A DNA stretch of 36,747 nucleotides from a virus. The first letter of the stretch is position 1. Every line of letters begins with the position of its first letter. Made by a program: the position numbers and the translations under genes. Under the pieces are notes generated by a model. The model was not told the origin of the DNA, did no database searches, and saw only the letters and a program-made list of their open reading frames with translations. Positions 1-36,741 of this stretch are shown here, in pieces. Location of the stretch: IMG/VR virus record IMGVR_UViG_3300027996_000089, positions 1 to 36,747 of that record. The stretch is one strand, 5' to 3'.

Positions 1-126
1 TAAACCAATGTTTTAACTTTTTTTTCTTTTTTGCTTTGTTTTTTTTTCCTTTTACCTAAGTTTAAAAACTTCATTAATTAAGTATTTTTCAAGCTCCAGA
101 TGGAGTTTCTGTGTTAATTTTTCCAG
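1..126. repeat. Terminal direct repeat, left copy
   Basis: These 126 bases are repeated exactly at 36616-36741; the sequences differ only in the last six bases of the window. The repeat falls inside coding sequence (the end of one tail gene and the start of the next), so it marks an assembly overlap of a circular or circularly permuted genome rather than a separate element. The unique unit is about 36,615 bp. Confidence 0.95.
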
Positions 127-13513: not shown

Positions 13514-13909
13514 TTATTTAAAATTAAACGAATAAGTAACTCTTTTACTTGAAGAACCTAATCCGTTGTCTTTAGCTCTGGTTTTATCTCCGTAGTATTT
13601 TCCCATATTTTTAGATAACGTGTTTTTAACTCTGCCTTTTCTTTTTAAGATCCAATTTTCATTTTTAGCTAATGCGTGAATTAAAGCTGGAGTTGTGGTT
13701 GTCAAATTAACATTCCAATTATTTTTTTTATAATATTTTGATATTTCATTTATAAAATTTACTCCAATTCCAATACCTTGATAATCTGGCAATACGACTA
13801 ATCTGTGAATTCTTTTCCAACCTTTTCTCATTGGAAACTGTATAACTCCTGTATGACAAACAATTTCACCATTTAATACACCAATCCATTGTTCAGAAGC
13901 TTGATGCAA
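13514..13909 (-). CDS. GNAT acyltransferase domain, C-terminal part of a frameshifted ABC-GNAT protein
   Basis: The GNAT motif A is RLVVLPDYQGIGIG, the acyl-CoA pyrophosphate loop, preceded by IVCHTGVIQFP (strands 2-4) and followed by SKYYKKNNWNVNLTTT. The last residues SSSKRVTYSFNF are also typical of phage members. The only start at this point is a TTG at 13909 in mid-domain, yet the same frame is open upstream to 14038 and reads YQRPKFKIEIYKTGKQY, then WKPFKKYHYLNESL, which joins seamlessly to the domain. It is therefore the C-terminal half of the ABC ATPase gene upstream, displaced by a -1 shift. Mom-type DNA-modifying enzymes also use a GNAT-like fold; the acceptor here is unknown. Confidence 0.8.
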   Translation of the reverse strand: MHQASEQWIGVLNGEIVCHTGVIQFPMRKGWKRIHRLVVLPDYQGIGIGVNFINEISKYYKKNNWNVNLTTTTPALIHALAKNENWILKRKGRVKNTLSKNMGKYYGDKTRAKDNGLGSSSKRVTYSFNFK

Positions 13910-13917
13910 AGACTCAT

Positions 13918-14616
13918 TTAAATAATGATATTTTTTAAATGGTTTCCAAATTTCTTTTCGATATTGCTTTCCAGTTTTATATATTTCGATTTTAAATTTT
14001 GGTCTTTGATATTTTTTTGGACAAAAAAAAACTGTTGTTTATCAGTATCATAAATCCAATCTGGCTCCAACCATTCAGTTATGTCCTTATGACAAGTTAC
14101 GGCAATAAATTTTTTATTCAGTTTTTTAACAGCTTTTGAAATCGCATAACTGCCAGTTTTTGCGACCTCTCTGTTTACTACGCTGGTAAATTCATCAAAA
14201 ACTATTATTTCGCTTTCTTTTAATATTGAATTCGCTAAATCGACTCTCATTTTTTCGCCATTACTAAGAACGTTGTACGGCTTTAACCAACTTGGAGGCG
14301 ATGCGAATCCAACGCTTGTGAAAGCCTTTGTGATTTCTTTTACGCTTTTTTCTTTTGGCATATCGTCAATGACCGCCTCCGCTTTATATTTATTTTCTAT
14401 GAAATGATTTTCAAATAAATGATTTGCAATCGTGCTTTTGCCTGTCCCAGATCCACCAACGATTAAACCAATATTCCAATTTTTACCATCCAAATCAATG
14501 TTTCCTTTGAAATGTTCTACTACTTTTTCAATATCTAAATCGAAAGCATTCAAAACGTGAGAAACCCTAAAAGTTTCTTTAGGTTTGCTCTTTTTTATAA
14601 TGTCAAAACTCGGCAT
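13918..14616 (-). CDS. ABC-type ATPase domain, N-terminal part of an ABC-GNAT protein
   Basis: 232 residues in the zero frame. Walker A GGSGTGKST (54-62), ABC signature-like LSNGEK (117-122), Walker B IIVFDEF (137-143) and H-loop CHKD (175-178). There is no membrane segment, so it is a soluble ABC ATPase like those acting on DNA. About 35 residues after position 195 (QQFFFVQKNIKDQNLK on) look unlike a normal domain end, whereas the -1 frame from 14038 on continues into a GNAT domain. The ATG overlaps the ParB-like gene by 22 bases. Confidence 0.85.
   Translation of the reverse strand: MPSFDIIKKSKPKETFRVSHVLNAFDLDIEKVVEHFKGNIDLDGKNWNIGLIVGGSGTGKSTIANHLFENHFIENKYKAEAVIDDMPKEKSVKEITKAFTSVGFASPPSWLKPYNVLSNGEKMRVDLANSILKESEIIVFDEFTSVVNREVAKTGSYAISKAVKKLNKKFIAVTCHKDITEWLEPDWIYDTDKQQFFFVQKNIKDQNLKSKYIKLESNIEKKFGNHLKNIII
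14012..14031 (-). other. Candidate -1 frameshift site between ABC and GNAT frames
   Basis: On the minus strand a run of nine T (14023-14031) is followed by GTCC and seven A (14012-14018). Zero-frame codons are CAG TTT TTT TTT GTC CAA AAA AAT. Two heptamers are in the correct phase for -1 slippage: T TTT TTT and A AAA AAT. The -1 frame is closed by three stops just upstream (last at 14039-14041), so the shift must occur here or within the next 100 bases. A homopolymer sequencing error is the main alternative. Confidence 0.65.
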
Positions 14617-15128
14617 TCATATCCTTTTTTAGTTAGTTCTTCAAATGTTTTTTCTTGCTCTGTTTCATTATCGCAAGTAATAATAATTTCATAAACATCC
14701 TTAATTTGATCTGACAAATCAACATCATTTTTTTCGACCTCAAAATGTTTCACATCCAATCCCCAATCATCCAACGGCTCTGCATCCCATTCATTAGCAA
14801 TCAAATCCCAATCCCATTCGCCAAATCCAACGTTATCCTTAATTATAAATTCCCTTTGCTGTTCTTCTGTTAAATCGGATGCCTTTATTACAGGAATTTC
14901 AGACAGTCCAGCCTCTTTACAGGCTTTTAAACGCATATTACCACCCAGAACTATCATTTCACTATTAACTACAATAGGTCTGATTTCCAACATTTTCGGA
15001 AAGTCTTTAATCGATTGAACTAATTTTCTAAATTTATCGTCTTTTAATACTCTCGGATTGTCTGGATTGTTTTGAATTTCGTCAATGTTGATTAATTCCG
15101 TTTTAATTATGCTTTCCTTTTTTGCCAC
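14595..15128 (-). CDS. ParB-like N-terminal domain protein
   Basis: 177 residues. Residues 8-75 match the ParB/Srx fold: INIDEIQNNPDNPR, LEIRPIVVNSEMIVLGGN and MRLKA (box with GGNMRLKA at 62-69). No helix-turn-helix partition domain follows; the C-terminal part has NDVDLSDQIKDVYEIIITCD, a shape common in phage ParB-domain proteins. The start is GTG at 15128, overlapping the previous gene by 26 bases. It is not a plasmid partition system (no ParA). It directly precedes the ABC-GNAT gene, with which this family is often paired in phages; it may target or modify DNA. CTP or nucleotide binding is possible by family. Confidence 0.8.
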   Translation of the reverse strand: MAKKESIIKTELINIDEIQNNPDNPRVLKDDKFRKLVQSIKDFPKMLEIRPIVVNSEMIVLGGNMRLKACKEAGLSEIPVIKASDLTEEQQREFIIKDNVGFGEWDWDLIANEWDAEPLDDWGLDVKHFEVEKNDVDLSDQIKDVYEIIITCDNETEQEKTFEELTKKGYECRVLTL

Positions 15129-19988: not shown

Positions 19989-20019
19989 CAAATATACTAA
20001 TTATTTTTGATTATTCAAA
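19989..20019 (-). promoter_or_regulatory. Promoter F: full TTTG-N19-TATATTTG
   Basis: Minus strand: -33 TTTG (20016-20019), exactly 19 bases, then -7 TATATTTG (19989-19996). This is a perfect Bacteroidetes consensus. The spacer contains ATCAAAAATAATT, like copies A-E. It drives the bet operon. Confidence 0.8.
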
Positions 20020-20101
20020 TCTGGTTTGCCTCCATAAAAAACCCAATAATACAAAGGAGGAAAATTACAATTATTGCAAGATCGTCTGGCTCAATTTTCA
20101 T
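20015..20101 (-). CDS. Very small membrane peptide
   Basis: 28 residues: an acidic head (MKIEPDD) and one hydrophobic helix with Ile, Leu, Phe (LAIIVIFLLCIIGFFME). The ATG overlaps the remnant stop of an old ninB end (TAATG at 20099-20103). The stop overlaps the -33 box of promoter F. Function unknown; single-pass membrane peptides may act as regulators or inhibitors. Confidence 0.5.
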   Translation of the reverse strand: MKIEPDDLAIIVIFLLCIIGFFMEANQI

Positions 20102-20111
20102 TATGTTAAAT

Positions 20112-20137
20112 TTTCGGGCAATTTACAGCCCAGATTT
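20112..20137. repeat. Cassette junction repeat, downstream copy (ninB 3'-end remnant)
   Basis: 26 bases identical to 21215-21240 in the ninB 3' end. In the ninB frame this copy reads NLGCKLPENLT and then a stop whose TAA overlaps the ATG of the 28-residue gene. It contains the inverted repeat GGGC-8 bases-GCCC. Confidence 0.85.
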
Positions 20138-20964
20138 TACTTTAAATACATTCCGTAATCGTTTATTTCATTTTTTAATTGTATTCCCTTTTTTAGTTTT
20201 AATTTGTTCTTTTTAAAAGCATTAAAGTTTATTGAATGATGCCATCTATTGTAACGTCTAATTGTTTTTACGCAATCTGGATGCTTTTTCTCTAATGACT
20301 TAGCAAATTCTAATCTCTCGTCTTTTGTATTATATATAGTATCTGTGTTTCCTCCCTTCATTATCATTGTGCTTACCTTATCCTGTAAAAAAGCATTGAA
20401 TAATATTGTACAATATCCCATTTTTAAAGTTCTTAATGCTAAATCTGAATCTTCGTTATATTTCCCCTCCCATTTTATATTTAAACTGTTTTTTATTAAA
20501 ATACAGCTGTAAATTCGGGTATTATGCGTAAATGGTCTTTTTTGCCTATTATACGCCATAAACGATGAATATTGAAATCCAGACAACATTACATTTTCAT
20601 AACGATCAACGAAATCTTCTGCACATTTAAAAATAGTTCCATCCATAACCTTGTACTTTATATCATTATTATAACGTCTAAAACACCTTATATTATCGTC
20701 TAAAATCCAATGATATTTTTCGTTTTTTTCTTTTGAAAGATTCCAAACAAAATTCCTAACAGGAACACCACCTTTATTACGTTCGCTGAAATTTTCTGGT
20801 GTTTTTATTATTTTTTTTGGATCTATTACTTTTGCGTAGTTATTATATTCGGATGGTTCAACGACTATTTGAAATGGAACATTTATTTCCTCCAGAGCTT
20901 TTACAGTTAATCTTGAATCCCATCTGCCCTTGCTTATTATATAAATACTATTTTTCGGATTCAT
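20137..20964 (-). CDS. Glycosyltransferase, TET-associated (TAGT)-type
   Basis: 275 residues. The N-terminus has YIISKGRWDSRLT (residues 8-20) then QIVVEPSEYNNY. The nucleotide-sugar site is WILDDNI (86-92) after a conserved VRN (70-71), with EDSDLALR (171-178) further on. SKGR, VEPxEY and DDNI are the pattern I associate with TET-associated glycosyltransferases, linked by Iyer and colleagues to hypermodified phage DNA. There is no membrane segment or signal, so it acts in the cytoplasm, possibly on DNA bases. It overlaps the small gene upstream by 17 bases; both lie between two copies of the ninB end. TET itself is not seen here, so the acceptor is unknown. Confidence 0.7.
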   Translation of the reverse strand: MNPKNSIYIISKGRWDSRLTVKALEEINVPFQIVVEPSEYNNYAKVIDPKKIIKTPENFSERNKGGVPVRNFVWNLSKEKNEKYHWILDDNIRCFRRYNNDIKYKVMDGTIFKCAEDFVDRYENVMLSGFQYSSFMAYNRQKRPFTHNTRIYSCILIKNSLNIKWEGKYNEDSDLALRTLKMGYCTILFNAFLQDKVSTMIMKGGNTDTIYNTKDERLEFAKSLEKKHPDCVKTIRRYNRWHHSINFNAFKKNKLKLKKGIQLKNEINDYGMYLK

Positions 20965-21202
20965 CGCTATAATATTTTAAATTAGAAACTGCGCATCTAT
21001 TTAATTTTGGAAACCAGTAATTTTCTTGATTAAATTTAATTTCTTGTCCAAAAAGTTCGCTAAATTTTTTTATGTCATCCCTTGTTTTAAAATTTAATTT
21101 TATAGTCAATACTGGTGTTTCTGGATTCATAATAAATTCTGGCATTTCTTTCCATTCGTTTTCCCAAAAATTTTCTTCTTCAAATAAGTTAATCTGTGTC
21201 AT
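20948..21202 (-). CDS. Small partner of the glycosyltransferase (MPEF-type)
   Basis: 84 residues with the pattern W..MPEFIMNPETPVLTIKL, then FSELFGQEIKF and YWFPK. Similar short proteins occur in phages next to modification genes, so I treat it as an accessory subunit or substrate-binding partner, without a known activity. The overlap with the glycosyltransferase gene (17 bases) implies coupled expression. It starts two bases before the ninB stop. Confidence 0.6.
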   Translation of the reverse strand: MTQINLFEEENFWENEWKEMPEFIMNPETPVLTIKLNFKTRDDIKKFSELFGQEIKFNQENYWFPKLNRCAVSNLKYYSDESEK

Positions 21203-21203
21203 A

Positions 21204-21608
21204 TTATAATAGTGTTTCGGGCAATTTACAGCCCAGATTTATTATGCAATATCGCTTTACTTTATCTATATAATCCGAAAACTCTGGAACCTTTAATTTC
21301 GTTGTAGTCTTTATGTATTCGAAAATCTCTCCAGTCTGTTCATCCTGTTTGCTCCTTTTCAGAAACTTGTATTTGAAAATCTCGTGTAGCTCGTCTTTCT
21401 CATAGCCCGTGTAATCCGAAACAATCGCCAGAATTTTCCAGTACAATCGATTCTGTTCAATGGTTCGCTTTCCTGTGTATTTTGAAATCGAAAAATAATA
21501 GCTGCCCTCTGGAAGATCTTTTAACAGCTTTTCGAAATCCTGTCTGTCTTTCCAGATTATGTTATTTCTGGCATCCTTTTTAAAAACTCCGATATATTCG
21601 TTTTTCAT
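21204..21608 (-). CDS. ninB: NinB-like recombination protein
   Basis: 134 residues, the usual length. Motifs: GKRTIEQNRLYWKILAIV and TGYEKDELHEIFKYKFL, then KTTTKLKVPEFSDYIDKVKR and the end NLGCKLPE. NinB (lambda Orf) is a single-strand DNA-binding mediator that aids Red-type annealing. The gene is two bases after the MmcB-like nuclease. Its 3' end is duplicated 1.1 kb downstream, past the glycosyltransferase cassette. Confidence 0.85.
   Translation of the reverse strand: MKNEYIGVFKKDARNNIIWKDRQDFEKLLKDLPEGSYYFSISKYTGKRTIEQNRLYWKILAIVSDYTGYEKDELHEIFKYKFLKRSKQDEQTGEIFEYIKTTTKLKVPEFSDYIDKVKRYCIINLGCKLPETLL
21215..21240. repeat. Cassette junction repeat, upstream copy (3' end of ninB)
   Basis: 26 bases inside the ninB coding end, identical to 20112-20137. 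Between the two copies lie the MPEF-type gene and the glycosyltransferase gene. Confidence 0.85.
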
Positions 21609-22050: not shown

Positions 22051-22659
22051 TTATGCCTGTTTATAATCGCTTTGTTTTATCAACGTGTACGTGAACCATT
22101 CGCCCCATTGAGTTTGAGCCTGTTTATACAAATTAATGCAAAATTTATAGTCGTTTGGATCTTGCGTTACTTGGCATCCAGCGGAGTTCCTGTCCACGTT
22201 TTCAATTTCTTGGTATGCACTTGCTCGATGTAAATTTATTCCGTGCATCCCAACGTCAACAGGCGAATTTTCATAATCGTAAATAAAGTCCTTATTGTTA
22301 TCACGATAAACAGCAACAGGCTGTCGTTGACATAAAGCCAAATATTTTCCACGATGTAAGTCCAATTTATACGTGCTGCGATATTGGTCTGGAACGAGAA
22401 TCGCACAGCCTTTTTTATTCATCGGATTTATTAGGAATCCAGATCCAGCCAAAGTCGTAATTTGAGTTTGAAAAATATTCCAATAGCCCTCGTATCGCCA
22501 GAAGATTACCAATAAATCGTTGAACTTATTTACAACAGGATTATCGGATCTAATTCCAACGATATTTAAATTAAATGGCTTACTGTCATTTTTAAAAACA
22601 ACGTGATCCAAGTCCTCCAAAGATTTGATTAAACTCGGAATGTTAATGTCTAATTTCAT
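22051..22659 (-). CDS. YkuD-like (L,D-transpeptidase-related) protein
   Basis: 202 residues. The C-terminal half has MHGINLH (His139, His144), then about 15 residues, then NSAGCQV (Ser159, Cys162), resembling the HG...SxGC catalytic motif of YkuD domains. No signal peptide is seen. Such genes in phages may act as cell-wall hydrolases or transpeptidases. It lies in the early region, away from the lysis genes. The leader duplicates the one before the methyltransferase. Confidence 0.5.
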   Translation of the reverse strand: MKLDINIPSLIKSLEDLDHVVFKNDSKPFNLNIVGIRSDNPVVNKFNDLLVIFWRYEGYWNIFQTQITTLAGSGFLINPMNKKGCAILVPDQYRSTYKLDLHRGKYLALCQRQPVAVYRDNNKDFIYDYENSPVDVGMHGINLHRASAYQEIENVDRNSAGCQVTQDPNDYKFCINLYKQAQTQWGEWFTYTLIKQSDYKQA

Positions 22660-22678
22660 AATTATATTAGTTTATTAA
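22654..22678. repeat. Cassette junction repeat, downstream copy (exonuclease 3'-end remnant)
   Basis: 25 bases that match 23464-23488 with one change. Read in the exonuclease frame both copies encode NKLI and a stop; the single difference (CTA here, CTT there) is silent. It lies between the methyltransferase stop and the ATG at 22659. Confidence 0.8.
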
Positions 22679-23469
22679 AAATTCAAATAGTTGAAAATAT
22701 TAGTTTGTACATATTTTTTTGGTTTTATACTGTCCAGATCTTTTGTCCATTGTTTTGCCATCGCCTCCGCAATTCCTTTAAATGTTTTGCTGCGTAAAGT
22801 ACTGCGTTCAGCTGGAGTTTTAGCATCTTGTAGAGCTTTATAATACCACATTGGCATTTTCTTTTTAACTCCTTTTTTGCTAATAAATTCAAAAAACTCC
22901 CCTTTTTCTACTATGTCCGTTGGCTCCAGTTTAGGTAAGTTTTTTAGCCAAAGACAAGTTGATTTCTGTGCTTTATCCCCAAATTGATAAGGCTGTACTA
23001 TTTGATCTGGTTTTCTGTATTTCGTGGACATTATTCCAATAGGATTTTCAACAGCAATTTTATCAATCGGTGCATTGATCATTTCCATAAAAAAATCAAT
23101 TCCTTGTTGCTGTCTGCCATCTGCAATTTTTTGCTTAAAATGTCTGGCTCCACTTGTTGCCAAATGTGTGCAAGGAGGAAACGAAATCATCAAATCCCAC
23201 TCCCAGCCGACTTGTCTTATTCTGTGTTCTTTAAATTCAAATTCTTGAATGTCTGCCGAAACGTCAAGTTTTAAATCAAAATTATCATTAATCGTAACTT
23301 CATTTGAATCGAACCATCCGTTCATTATTTCGATTACATCGTCTTGAAAATGCCATTCTGGATGTCCTCCAGAACAGGGCAATAAATCACAGCTAAAAGC
23401 CTCGTGTCCTAATTTTCTAAGCTCATTTGTAACGGCTTGGCTTTCTTCACAGCTTACTAATATTTTCAT
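22675..23469 (-). CDS. DNA cytosine-type methyltransferase (phage type)
   Basis: 264 residues. SAM-site region VSCEESQAVTNELRKLGHEA near the N-terminus; motif IV-like SFPPCTHLATSGARH with PPC at 98-100; AVENPIG (130-136), the counterpart of the ENV motif. These agree with the phage C5-cytosine-related methyltransferases annotated widely. No separate target-recognition domain is obvious beyond the C-terminal 100 residues. No cognate endonuclease is present, so it probably protects phage DNA from host restriction. It lies between two copies of the exonuclease end. Confidence 0.75.
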   Translation of the reverse strand: MKILVSCEESQAVTNELRKLGHEAFSCDLLPCSGGHPEWHFQDDVIEIMNGWFDSNEVTINDNFDLKLDVSADIQEFEFKEHRIRQVGWEWDLMISFPPCTHLATSGARHFKQKIADGRQQQGIDFFMEMINAPIDKIAVENPIGIMSTKYRKPDQIVQPYQFGDKAQKSTCLWLKNLPKLEPTDIVEKGEFFEFISKKGVKKKMPMWYYKALQDAKTPAERSTLRSKTFKGIAEAMAKQWTKDLDSIKPKKYVQTNIFNYLNF

Positions 23470-23488
23470 AATTATATAAGTTTATTAA
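23464..23488. repeat. Cassette junction repeat, upstream copy (3' end of the exonuclease gene)
   Basis: 25 bases at the end of the RecE-like gene and the start of the methyltransferase gene, repeated with one silent change at 22654-22678. Confidence 0.8.
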
Positions 23489-32516: not shown

Positions 32517-35500
32517 TTTTTAGTAGTAAATAAAGCTCCATTTCTGTAATGTTTCCTGTCGATTTTATCCAATGTTCGAACTTTCTGGACAACAGCATCC
32601 GACATTTCATCGTAATTCCATTCTGTCGTTGGCATATTTTTAATGGCTCTGGTTATGGCTTTTGTCGATTGCTCTAATTTATCGAATTTTTGCAAAACAG
32701 CTTGATTCGTTGTCCAGCTATTATTCATTAATTCGGCTGCTCTGTTTGAAATCTGGCTGTGGACTATTGGTCGCATATCAGTAGAATTATAATTTTCTGC
32801 CATTCTACCCAAATCCGAGTTCGAAATTCCACCAAGTTTTTTATTGGTTTCTGGATCAACAATCCTTTCGGCTTTATCGACTCTGACAATGTAACCATCC
32901 TTTCCAGCGATTTGAGGCTGTCCAAGTGATTCGCCAACGTTTTCGGTTCCTTCGTAAAATGTCGGCAAAGTTTTGATAAATGCAGCAAGTCCAGATAAAT
33001 CCTTTATTGTATCTCGCAAAGGTGTTTTGGAACCCTGTTCGACCTTTGAACTGTAAGCCTTAAATCCAGATATAGCAGCATCAATTATCTGTTGCCTCCT
33101 TTGAGCTTTTTGTTTCTTTAATTGTAGCTCCTGTTCCCTTTGTTCCTCCGCTGCCAGAGAACGTTCAGCATCAATATTGCCTTGCTCGGCTAATCTTTTT
33201 AGTTCCTCCTGTCGTTTCTTAGCTGCGTTCACTTCTTCATCCATCAAAGCGATTCGTTCCTGTGTTCTCATTCTGGATTTTTCCTGTAAGACATCCAAAA
33301 TTGTATTTAGACTTTCGGCAAGTTCTTTTTGTCTTTCTAATTCCTTTACTGCGTTATCCTTTTGATTTGCTGCGACCTTGTCAGCTCCTTTTATTTGAGC
33401 CTCGATAACTTCATCGTTTGAGTCGTTTATAGCTTGATTTTTTTCCTTTTCAAGCTTTTTTAAATCGCCAACAAGTTTCAAAGCGATTAACTCCCTTTCC
33501 TCTGCTGTTTTTCCAGCCTCTAACATTTCAGCCTCCGCAATAATTTTTAAAGAATCTTCACGTAATTGAAATTCCTTGTCGATTAGTCTTTCCATAGCAT
33601 CGACATTTACTTCCTCGTTTGCTAATCCCTTTTTTATCTGTATTTGCTTTTCAGCCTCGACTAAATCATTCGCAGCGATTTCCTGTTGTTTCCGTTCCTC
33701 TTGGTTAATTTCCTCGATTAAATCCCTTTGCTTTTCAGCAGCTTTGACCATATCAGCCAATCGTTTCGCCTTTGCTCTGTCCCTTGCAGCCTTTTCTTTA
33801 TCCGTTAGTGTTTTTGTAAACTGTTTTTCTGAAACTATATTTAAACCAATTTCTCTACGTCTTTTTATTAAATTAGCGATTTCGGTTTGGTAGATTTCTA
33901 TTGATGCCTCCCTACCTTTTATCGCATCTTGATCGGCTAAAAGTCCACGTTCTTTTTGTTTAATTAAAAAATCCTGTTGTTTTGAATCAGCCTCGTTTAA
34001 AATAATTTTGAATTTTCCAACTTTTGTTCCGATTTTTGCAGATTCATCGACAGCATCAATCGATTTTTTCTCTGCATCAATTTTATCTTTTAAAAGTTTT
34101 ATTTCAGCATCGACTAATTTTTTTTGATCGTCGAAACTTTTGTTTCTAATTTTTCGCAATTCCTTTTCGGATGCTCCCTTTTCTTTTGCAGCCTTTATCG
34201 TTTCGTCTGTTTCTAAACGTAGCATTTCGATAGATGCCTCCAGCTGTTCGTTTCGTTCTGTGATTACATTATTGGCTGCCTCGATTTGTTTATTTAAAAG
34301 CTCCTGTGCTTTGGCTCCAGAATCAGCAGCTGTTCCAAAATCCCAAAGTAAGGCAATAGCCGTAGTCAGCCCAGAAATTAAAAGTCCTATTGGATTACTC
34401 TTTATTGTAGTATTAAATATTTTTAATAATGACGTTGCCGATTTTATTCCTCGATTCATCGCAACGACTGTGATCCGATAGGCAATCATTACAGCCTTTC
34501 CAACTTTCATCGCCAGATTAACGGCTAACATCGTCGCTTTAAATATTACAAAATATTTAACAGATCGAATAATAACAGTTAAAATCGTTTCGAGATTATC
34601 TGTCAAAAACTTAATAGCACTTTTTAATTTAAAAACTGTTCCAGCACTTTCCGAAGTTCCAAGAATCATTCCTTGCCATTTGGAATTTAAAAGATCCAGC
34701 TGTCCGTTAACTGTGTCCAGCTGTTTCGCTGCCATTTCATCCAGTTCATCTTTTACGTCTGTTATTCCATCTTTAAGATCAACCAACGTATCGGTGTTAT
34801 CCATAAAAGTTTTAAAGGCTGCGACAGACCTAACATCCGTTATCTCCAATGCCTTCGCTAAATTGACTCCCTCTCCTTCTAACTTATTTAAACCAGCTAC
34901 CAATTCTGGTAAACTTTTAACTGGTCTGCCGAGTTCCTTTGCCAAATCTCCATTGGCATCAGCAAGTTTTAACAGGATGTTTCTGGTTGACGTTGCAGCC
35001 GTACTTGCATCGAATCCAGAGTTTGCCAAAGTTCCGAGTAAAGCCGTAGATTCCTCAATACTAAAGCCTAAAGCCTTCGAAACAGGAGCCACTTTCGACA
35101 TCGCTGTTTCCAGAAATTCCATATTCAAACCAGATTTGGTTGTTGCCACTCCTAAAACCGAAGTAACTCTTTCCATTTCCGTAGCCTCCAGACCAAAAGC
35201 CCTCATTGTGGAACCAGCCAATTTCGCAGCTGCAGACAGGTCTGATCCTGTTGCCGATGCTAAATTTAAAATGCTTTCTGTGGACTGTATAATTTGAGGC
35301 GTTGTAAAACCTAATTTCGCTAACTCTGTTTGTAATCCAGCGACTTCTGTGGCTGTAAATCTGGTTGATTCGCCAAGTTCTAAAGCGTTATTTTTTAACG
35401 AATCTAATTCCCTTCCTGTGGCTTGACTGATGGCTCCTAAATTTGCTATGGCAGAATCGAAATCCGTTATTACTCCGATTGTGGAACGCATTAAACGAGC

Positions 35501-36145: not shown

Positions 36146-36689
36146 CGTTCATTTTTTTATTTACTCGCTGTGCCTCCTCCTCGTACATTTGTAAATAAGT
36201 ATAAAATCTCTTTGTCGAAATCTGTTTGGGATCAATACTGATCGCCATCCATTTTTCAATATATCCGACCTGTCTGTCAAAATCAGCATCCGCATTTTTA
36301 TTAATCTGCATATCAGCTAACTGTTTTCTGGCAATCGTTATTTTTGTTGCCAAATGTTTTTTCTCTTTCAATAGCATTTCACAGGTCAGCAACGCTATTT
36401 TTTTTTCGATTTTTAAAACCCTTTTAAATTTATCAGTCAATCCGAAAAGAGTCATATATTCATCGTATAATTTTTCCCAGCCGTAAACCAGATCCGATTC
36501 GTGATATGGCAGAGTGTCGATATTTTGCGGAGTCGCATTTACCAGAATAAATCGAAAATCTTTCGTGTCGTAAACTTTATTCCAGCTATACAAAGGTAAT
36601 TCATCTAAGGAATTATAAACCAATGTTTTAACTTTTTTTTCTTTTTTGCTTTGTTTTTTTTTCCTTTTACCTAAGTTTAAAAACTTCAT
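36132..36689 (-). CDS. Probable tail assembly chaperone or tape-measure partner
   Basis: 185 residues, helical, with a very basic start (LGKRKKKQSKKEKK) and many charged heptads (KRVLKIEKKIALLTCEML). It is directly upstream of the tape measure, the usual place for the GT chaperone. The ATG at 36689 lies within the terminal repeat; on the circle it is 23 bases before the end of 52-519 and in the +1 frame. A +1 shift at CTTAGG could also join the two frames. Confidence 0.6.
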   Translation of the reverse strand: MKFLNLGKRKKKQSKKEKKVKTLVYNSLDELPLYSWNKVYDTKDFRFILVNATPQNIDTLPYHESDLVYGWEKLYDEYMTLFGLTDKFKRVLKIEKKIALLTCEMLLKEKKHLATKITIARKQLADMQINKNADADFDRQVGYIEKWMAISIDPKQISTKRFYTYLQMYEEEAQRVNKKMNDGKN

Positions 36690-36741
36690 TAATTAAGTAT
36701 TTTTCAAGCTCCAGATGGAGTTTCTGTGTTAATTTTTCCAG
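36616..36741. repeat. Terminal direct repeat, right copy
   Basis: Exact copy of bases 1-126. After it, the last six bases (36742-36747) do not match bases 127-132, which looks like a ragged contig end. Joining the copies puts the gene at 52-519 directly upstream of the gene starting at 36689, with a 23-base overlap. Confidence 0.95.

Follow-up and report, generated by a model that had tools for sequence, protein, structure and literature searches.

How phages gain genes between tightly packed neighbours is disputed, with recombination at short homologies set against random joining followed by selection. The closest described cases come from the parts of Pope et al. (2011; PMC3029335) that deal with the mycobacteriophages Island3 and LRRHood. 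In Island3, gene 68 lies behind gene 67 and the two genes share a 60-bp end; Brujita is without the added gene and has one copy of this sequence, and gain or loss through recombination at the repeat was proposed. In LRRHood, genes 43-46 occupy a 1.35-kb segment with 29-bp direct repeats that correspond to the extreme 3′ end of a gene, and relatives such as Cali have a single copy. The same article cites the work of Clark et al. (2001) on lambdoid phages, where short conserved sequences at gene boundaries were proposed as exchange points. The moron of Hendrix and colleagues is, in the account given in PMC6316719, an extra gene between undisturbed residents and, in its classical form, a complete transcription unit.

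Here we describe a locus of the Island3/LRRHood kind in IMG/VR virus record IMGVR_UViG_3300027996_000089, a stretch of 36,747 nt that we call the window. A 126-bp exact direct repeat near both ends of the window (1-126 and 36616-36741) fits an assembly that is complete and either circular or circularly permuted. The region of interest is read from the minus strand in the order ninB, an 84-aa gene, a 275-aa glycosyltransferase, the second copy of a short repeat, genes of 28, 66 and 82 aa, and recT (Table 1). The initial annotation had reported a 26-base exact direct repeat, TTTCGGGCAATTTACAGCCCAGATTT, at the ninB 3′ end and again behind the glycosyltransferase. Both positions proved exact, these are the only two matches to the 26-mer in the 36.7-kb record even when 3 mismatches are allowed, and a repeat of this type appeared in none of 100 dinucleotide shuffles of the record. 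The upstream copy is ninB coding sequence. The first base of the downstream copy is the last base of the glycosyltransferase stop codon and, on the minus strand, this copy continues AAT CTG GGC TGT AAA TTG CCC GAA AAT TTA ACA TAA TG, which translates, as had been claimed, to NLGCKLPENLT followed by a stop codon, TAA, that overlaps the start ATG of the 28-aa open reading frame. One base separates ninB from the 84-aa gene. We consider it very likely that the repeat is an insertion scar, formed when a two-gene cassette was gained at the ninB end by imprecise recombination; the space behind the glycosyltransferase would then be the scar itself.

Table 1. Positions in the window of the ninB locus and of a second, similar locus
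Feature	Position	Strand	Remarks
26-nt repeat, upstream copy	21215..21240	-	inside ninB 3′ end, just before the start of the 84-aa gene
26-nt repeat, downstream copy	20112..20137	-	exact match; apparent remnant of an older ninB end
Rest of the apparent older ninB end, ATTTAACATAATG	20099..20111	-	last residues; stop TAA overlaps next ATG
ninB/orf recombination mediator, resident	21204..21608	-	PHROG 72 NinB/Orf, E 5.5e-20
84-aa accessory protein, first gene of the putative cassette	20948..21202	-	homologues adjoin TAGT in L017-L024
TAGT-family glycosyltransferase, 275 aa, second gene of the putative cassette	20137..20964	-	PF20691 E 1.3e-36; PHROG 842 E 1.7e-41
28-aa resident gene 3′ of the putative insertion	20015..20101	-	homologue 68-71% aa identical in both close relatives, same place
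Second scar, upstream copy	23461..23488	-	exonuclease VIII-like gene 3′ end and methyltransferase start
DNA methyltransferase, 264 aa, putative cassette	22675..23469	-	PHROG 757 E 3e-64; between the second-scar copies
Second scar, downstream copy	22651..22678	-	window scar 22-28 nt

The two closest relatives, G1 (IMG/VR 3300037808_000672) and G2 (IMG/VR 3300024517_000057), are, like all the genomes compared, metagenome contigs. Much of the window aligns collinearly with both of them, mostly at 74-88% DNA identity (about 80%), and the two are about 92-98% identical to each other; the NinB protein of the window is 96% identical in amino acids to that of G1 and to that of G2. Neither relative has the pair at the ninB site, and each has a single copy of the repeat, at the ninB 3′ end, with T where both window copies have C. 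In both, ninB ends NLGCKLPENLT-TAA with TAATG, as does the downstream copy of the window. This end, GAAAATTTAACATAATG, occurs once in each relative and once in the window, at the downstream copy, and the bases that complete the ending there (20099..20111) match the ninB end of both relatives identically. The ninB gene of the window itself ends in GAAACACTATTATAATATG, unlike GAAAATTTAACATAATG, so that its last four residues are ETLL and those of the relatives ENLT. Since the relatives' ninB end is the sequence at the downstream copy, this copy is, on sequence comparison, the carrier of an older ninB end common to the relatives.

The single copy and the ENLT end in G1 and G2 support the proposal of the initial annotation that a cassette had entered at the ninB end and left the older tail behind; the contrary finding that it had named, both copies in a relative without the pair, was seen in neither. 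It had also expected ninB in such relatives to run straight into the 28-aa gene. The single copy and the ENLT-stop-ATG ending were as predicted, but ninB is never joined directly to that gene: the left flank and ENLT-stop-ATG continue as in the relatives, which have another insert before the 28-aa gene. A bare ninB-28-aa junction, which would be expected to read GAAAATTTAACATAATGAAAATTGAGCC, was not found in any relative. The insert in G1 and G2 begins with a 61-aa gene directly behind ninB. A cytosine methyltransferase follows in G2, and the ends of the G1 contig differ, one with and one without it, which may reflect two forms in one sample. L006 1-190 and L003 6405-7232 are two ends of one contig and show two versions of the ninB-28-aa interval, one with a cytosine methyltransferase and one without. 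No tail duplication was found at this insert (the 61-aa gene, and in G2 a 221-aa methyltransferase).

In two distant relatives, whose ninB is 43% identical, a homologue of the 66-aa gene lies directly behind ninB; the pair is absent from the ninB site in all four genomes compared, two of them distant. An exact search of IMG/VR with a 17-mer from the repeat core carrying the window's C gave no match, and the 16-mer TGTAAATTGCCCGAAA matched both close relatives and, beyond them, three contigs in which no homologue of the region's genes could be detected. No donor sharing the boundary sequence was found with these 17-mer and 16-mer searches of IMG/VR. A search of the annotated phage collection gave only weak matches to the methyltransferase region and no close relative, and a ninB search of GTDB genomes gave one distant locus at 38% identity.

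The locus thus has two direct copies flanking the added genes and, in relatives without these genes, one copy at the resident 3′ end. As described for Island3, the addition lies behind a resident gene whose 3′ end is repeated after it, and a relative has a single copy. The window differs in belonging to another phage group, in having two added genes and a repeat of 26 nt, and in the further scars of the genome and its relatives; moreover, the Island3 repeat, as it is described, encodes the C-terminus of the added gene, whereas that of the window starts at the added gene's stop codon. LRRHood shares the repeat-flanked segment at a gene 3′ end and the single copy in relatives, but its cargo is a repressor region, with one such segment described in that account, and the cargo here is a DNA-modification pair. 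Short sequences at gene boundaries are involved here as in the lambdoid proposal, as that work is cited, but the repeat is each target's own gene end and no donor with the same boundary was found. Like a moron, the pair is added between resident genes without disturbing them. Where the classical moron of that account is a complete transcription unit, the pair is separated from ninB by one base, so that no promoter fits between them, though one may lie inside ninB. Relative to the few open-access papers searched (wider precedent may exist), the trio of window, G1 and G2 extends the Island3/LRRHood kind by recurrence within a single group and by scars of two lengths for the same cassette.

The glycosyltransferase scored 126.9 bits against PF20691, for which the curated cut-off is 27.5, and thus belongs to the TAGT family; it stops a few residues short of the compared homologues, with its stop codon at the junction. 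The 84-aa protein matched no Pfam family at cut-off and no PHROG. In eight other phage contigs a homologue of it neighbours TAGT, so that the pair travels jointly in unrelated phages; the homologues of L018, L019 and L021 are fused to a ParB-like N-terminal part (assigned by eye), and that of L023 is fused to TAGT. Because the two are adjacent in eight contigs and fused in L023, the 84-aa gene and TAGT very probably form one functional unit that moves together. The other TAGT contigs show no donor, as ninB is not detectable in them, and no repeat copy was seen by eye around the 84-aa gene and TAGT there. The 84-aa protein has the look of a small domain associated with TAGT glycosyltransferases, next to them in many phages and fused to ParB-like proteins in three contigs and to TAGT in one.

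No sign of a TET/TAGT cytosine hypermodification pathway was seen: the Tet_JBP model of the required TET/JBP oxygenase matched neither the window nor G1, G2 and three other TAGT contigs, although these contigs may be incomplete. Thymidylate synthase-type models had no match in the window, and the three other TAGT contigs were likewise without matches to the TET/JBP and thymidylate synthase-type models. Elsewhere in the window, at 13514-15128, a GNAT acetyltransferase, an ABC-type ATPase and a ParB-like protein lie side by side, and the first two correspond to a single protein in PHROG 11143; this is possibly another DNA-modification module.

The window, G1 and G2 show further instances of the arrangement at ninB, in which an added gene is followed by a repeat of the tail of the gene upstream. 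A DNA methyltransferase in the window lies behind the exonuclease VIII-like gene and is followed by a copy of the last codons of that gene (22-28 nt; the 28-nt copies in Table 1 are 93% identical). G1 has a homologous methyltransferase in the same place with a longer copy, 49 nt at 94% identity or 65 nt at 85%, and the part of G2 that spans this site has no methyltransferase homologue and no second copy. Further scars are one of 15 nt in G1 (12186/12813), present as one copy in G2, and one of 12 nt in G2 behind the 66-aa gene (34535/34770), where the copy at 34770 continues TATAAACGATAAATTATGAG, the junction of the 66-aa gene and recT as found in G1. Scars of 9-10 nt also occur in the trio and overlap common leader sequence; several of the shorter scars overlap an A-rich leader that recurs in these genomes. 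Not every insertion leaves a scar, because the G2 methyltransferase near the 28-aa gene has none. The suggestion that other cassettes might carry the same end therefore held for the architecture and failed for the sequence itself, since TGTAAATTGCCCGAAA was matched beyond the close relatives only in contigs without homologous genes.

We scanned about 1 Mb of fetched phage loci for two kinds of duplication, in which either the tail of a gene is copied in front of a later one (tail type) or its head is copied after an earlier one (head type); pairs of distant genes served as background, and the ninB scar is left out of the counts. At a score of 15 or more in the window, G1 and G2, there were 4 tail-type matches against 0.33 expected and 0 of the head type against 0.61. 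Over all scanned loci the tail type gave 8 against 2.15 expected and the head type 3 against 4.13. The threshold is one of four, the gene caller is simple and crude, the numbers are small and the p-values rough, so the scan supports a polarity of tail over head, short of proof. An initial tail-duplication scan recovered the ninB scar and two later scans do not list it, one of them because the 28-aa gene is below its length limit. Some matches are low-complexity or promoter-like repeats and not scars (e.g. L044 8194), and the head-type matches in L024 look like internal repeats. An unrelated contig that bears ninB, L051, has an imperfect 40-nt tail duplication around one gene (8189-8228/8870-8909), possibly another scar of the ninB kind.

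In the sequence of events that we favour, the ancestor would have had ninB followed by the 28-aa gene, with stop and start sharing an A (TAATG), and a two-gene DNA-glycosylation cassette would have joined at the ninB end through imprecise recombination. At the left junction ninB would have stayed complete, or been supplied as such, with new final codons, and the right junction would have fallen back inside the ninB tail, so that about 26 nt of ninB came to be present twice and the old stop/start junction survived behind the cassette. Imprecise joining may lose, keep or repeat target sequence; where a gene tail contains the start region of the next gene, a loss would harm a gene and a repeat would do no such harm. 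Selection would then keep such a product: ninB remains complete, the left copy is closely followed by the start of the first new gene, and the right copy preserves the leader that belongs to the 28-aa gene. The phage encodes an exonuclease VIII-like protein as well as RecT and NinB/Orf, both identified by profile matches. Rad52-like recombinases and orf are reported to play a part in the formation of mosaics among lambdoid phages (PMC3945230), and for both reasons this recombination set would be the most likely agent, acting perhaps by annealing at very short matches or by a switch of template.

The direction of the change could be the reverse. Recombination between the copies could have removed the pair from an ancestor that had it between the repeats; ninB would then be left ending in ENLT, with the junction seen in the relatives, and the account of Island3 and Brujita could not exclude the same alternative (PMC3029335). 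We regard loss as unlikely: an earlier insertion would still be needed to make the scar, and the pair is missing at the site in all four genomes, including the two distant ones in which the next resident gene lies directly behind ninB. Integrases typically insert DNA at the 3′ end of a gene and regenerate that gene, and the 26-mer could accordingly be an attachment site or a target-site duplication made by a dedicated recombinase. Such an element is very improbable here, because the repeats are unrelated in sequence from one site to the next and range in length from 9 to 65 nt, scars of two lengths accompany the methyltransferase cassette at a single target gene, and no tyrosine integrase, serine resolvase or HNH model matched in the window or the two relatives; neither an encoded recombinase nor a duplication of fixed length was thus found.

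A paired functional element is extremely unlikely, although a small hairpin (UGGGC, an 8-nt loop, GCCCG) that might regulate translation or transcription around the cassette is predicted in the window with a 5-bp stem and z about -2. The single copy in the relative tested is ninB coding sequence and folds like shuffled sequence (z -0.6), and the analogous scars have unrelated sequences. We also think it extremely unlikely that two strain variants were joined in assembly at a shared short word. The contig does come from a metagenome collection, and the contigs of the relatives end inside the variable region, but a false join is possible only if the shared word already stands behind the glycosyltransferase, and would not easily create a second copy, and the genes on both sides read intact.

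Gain of the cassette by imprecise recombination, if correct, means that scars keep the older junction beside the new one, so that the direction and precision of an insertion can be read from sequence. The presence of several scars in one small group, with two lengths at one target, favours imprecise joining filtered by selection. Such scars record how compact genomes add genes without breaking old ones, and offer a countable signature for larger sets. It is possible, though we would lean against it at present, that gene gain in compact phage genomes commonly has a polar side effect, in which the upstream tail is duplicated along with the leader of the following gene. If true, the scars of a single genome could reveal which genes were recently added and the order in which they arrived.
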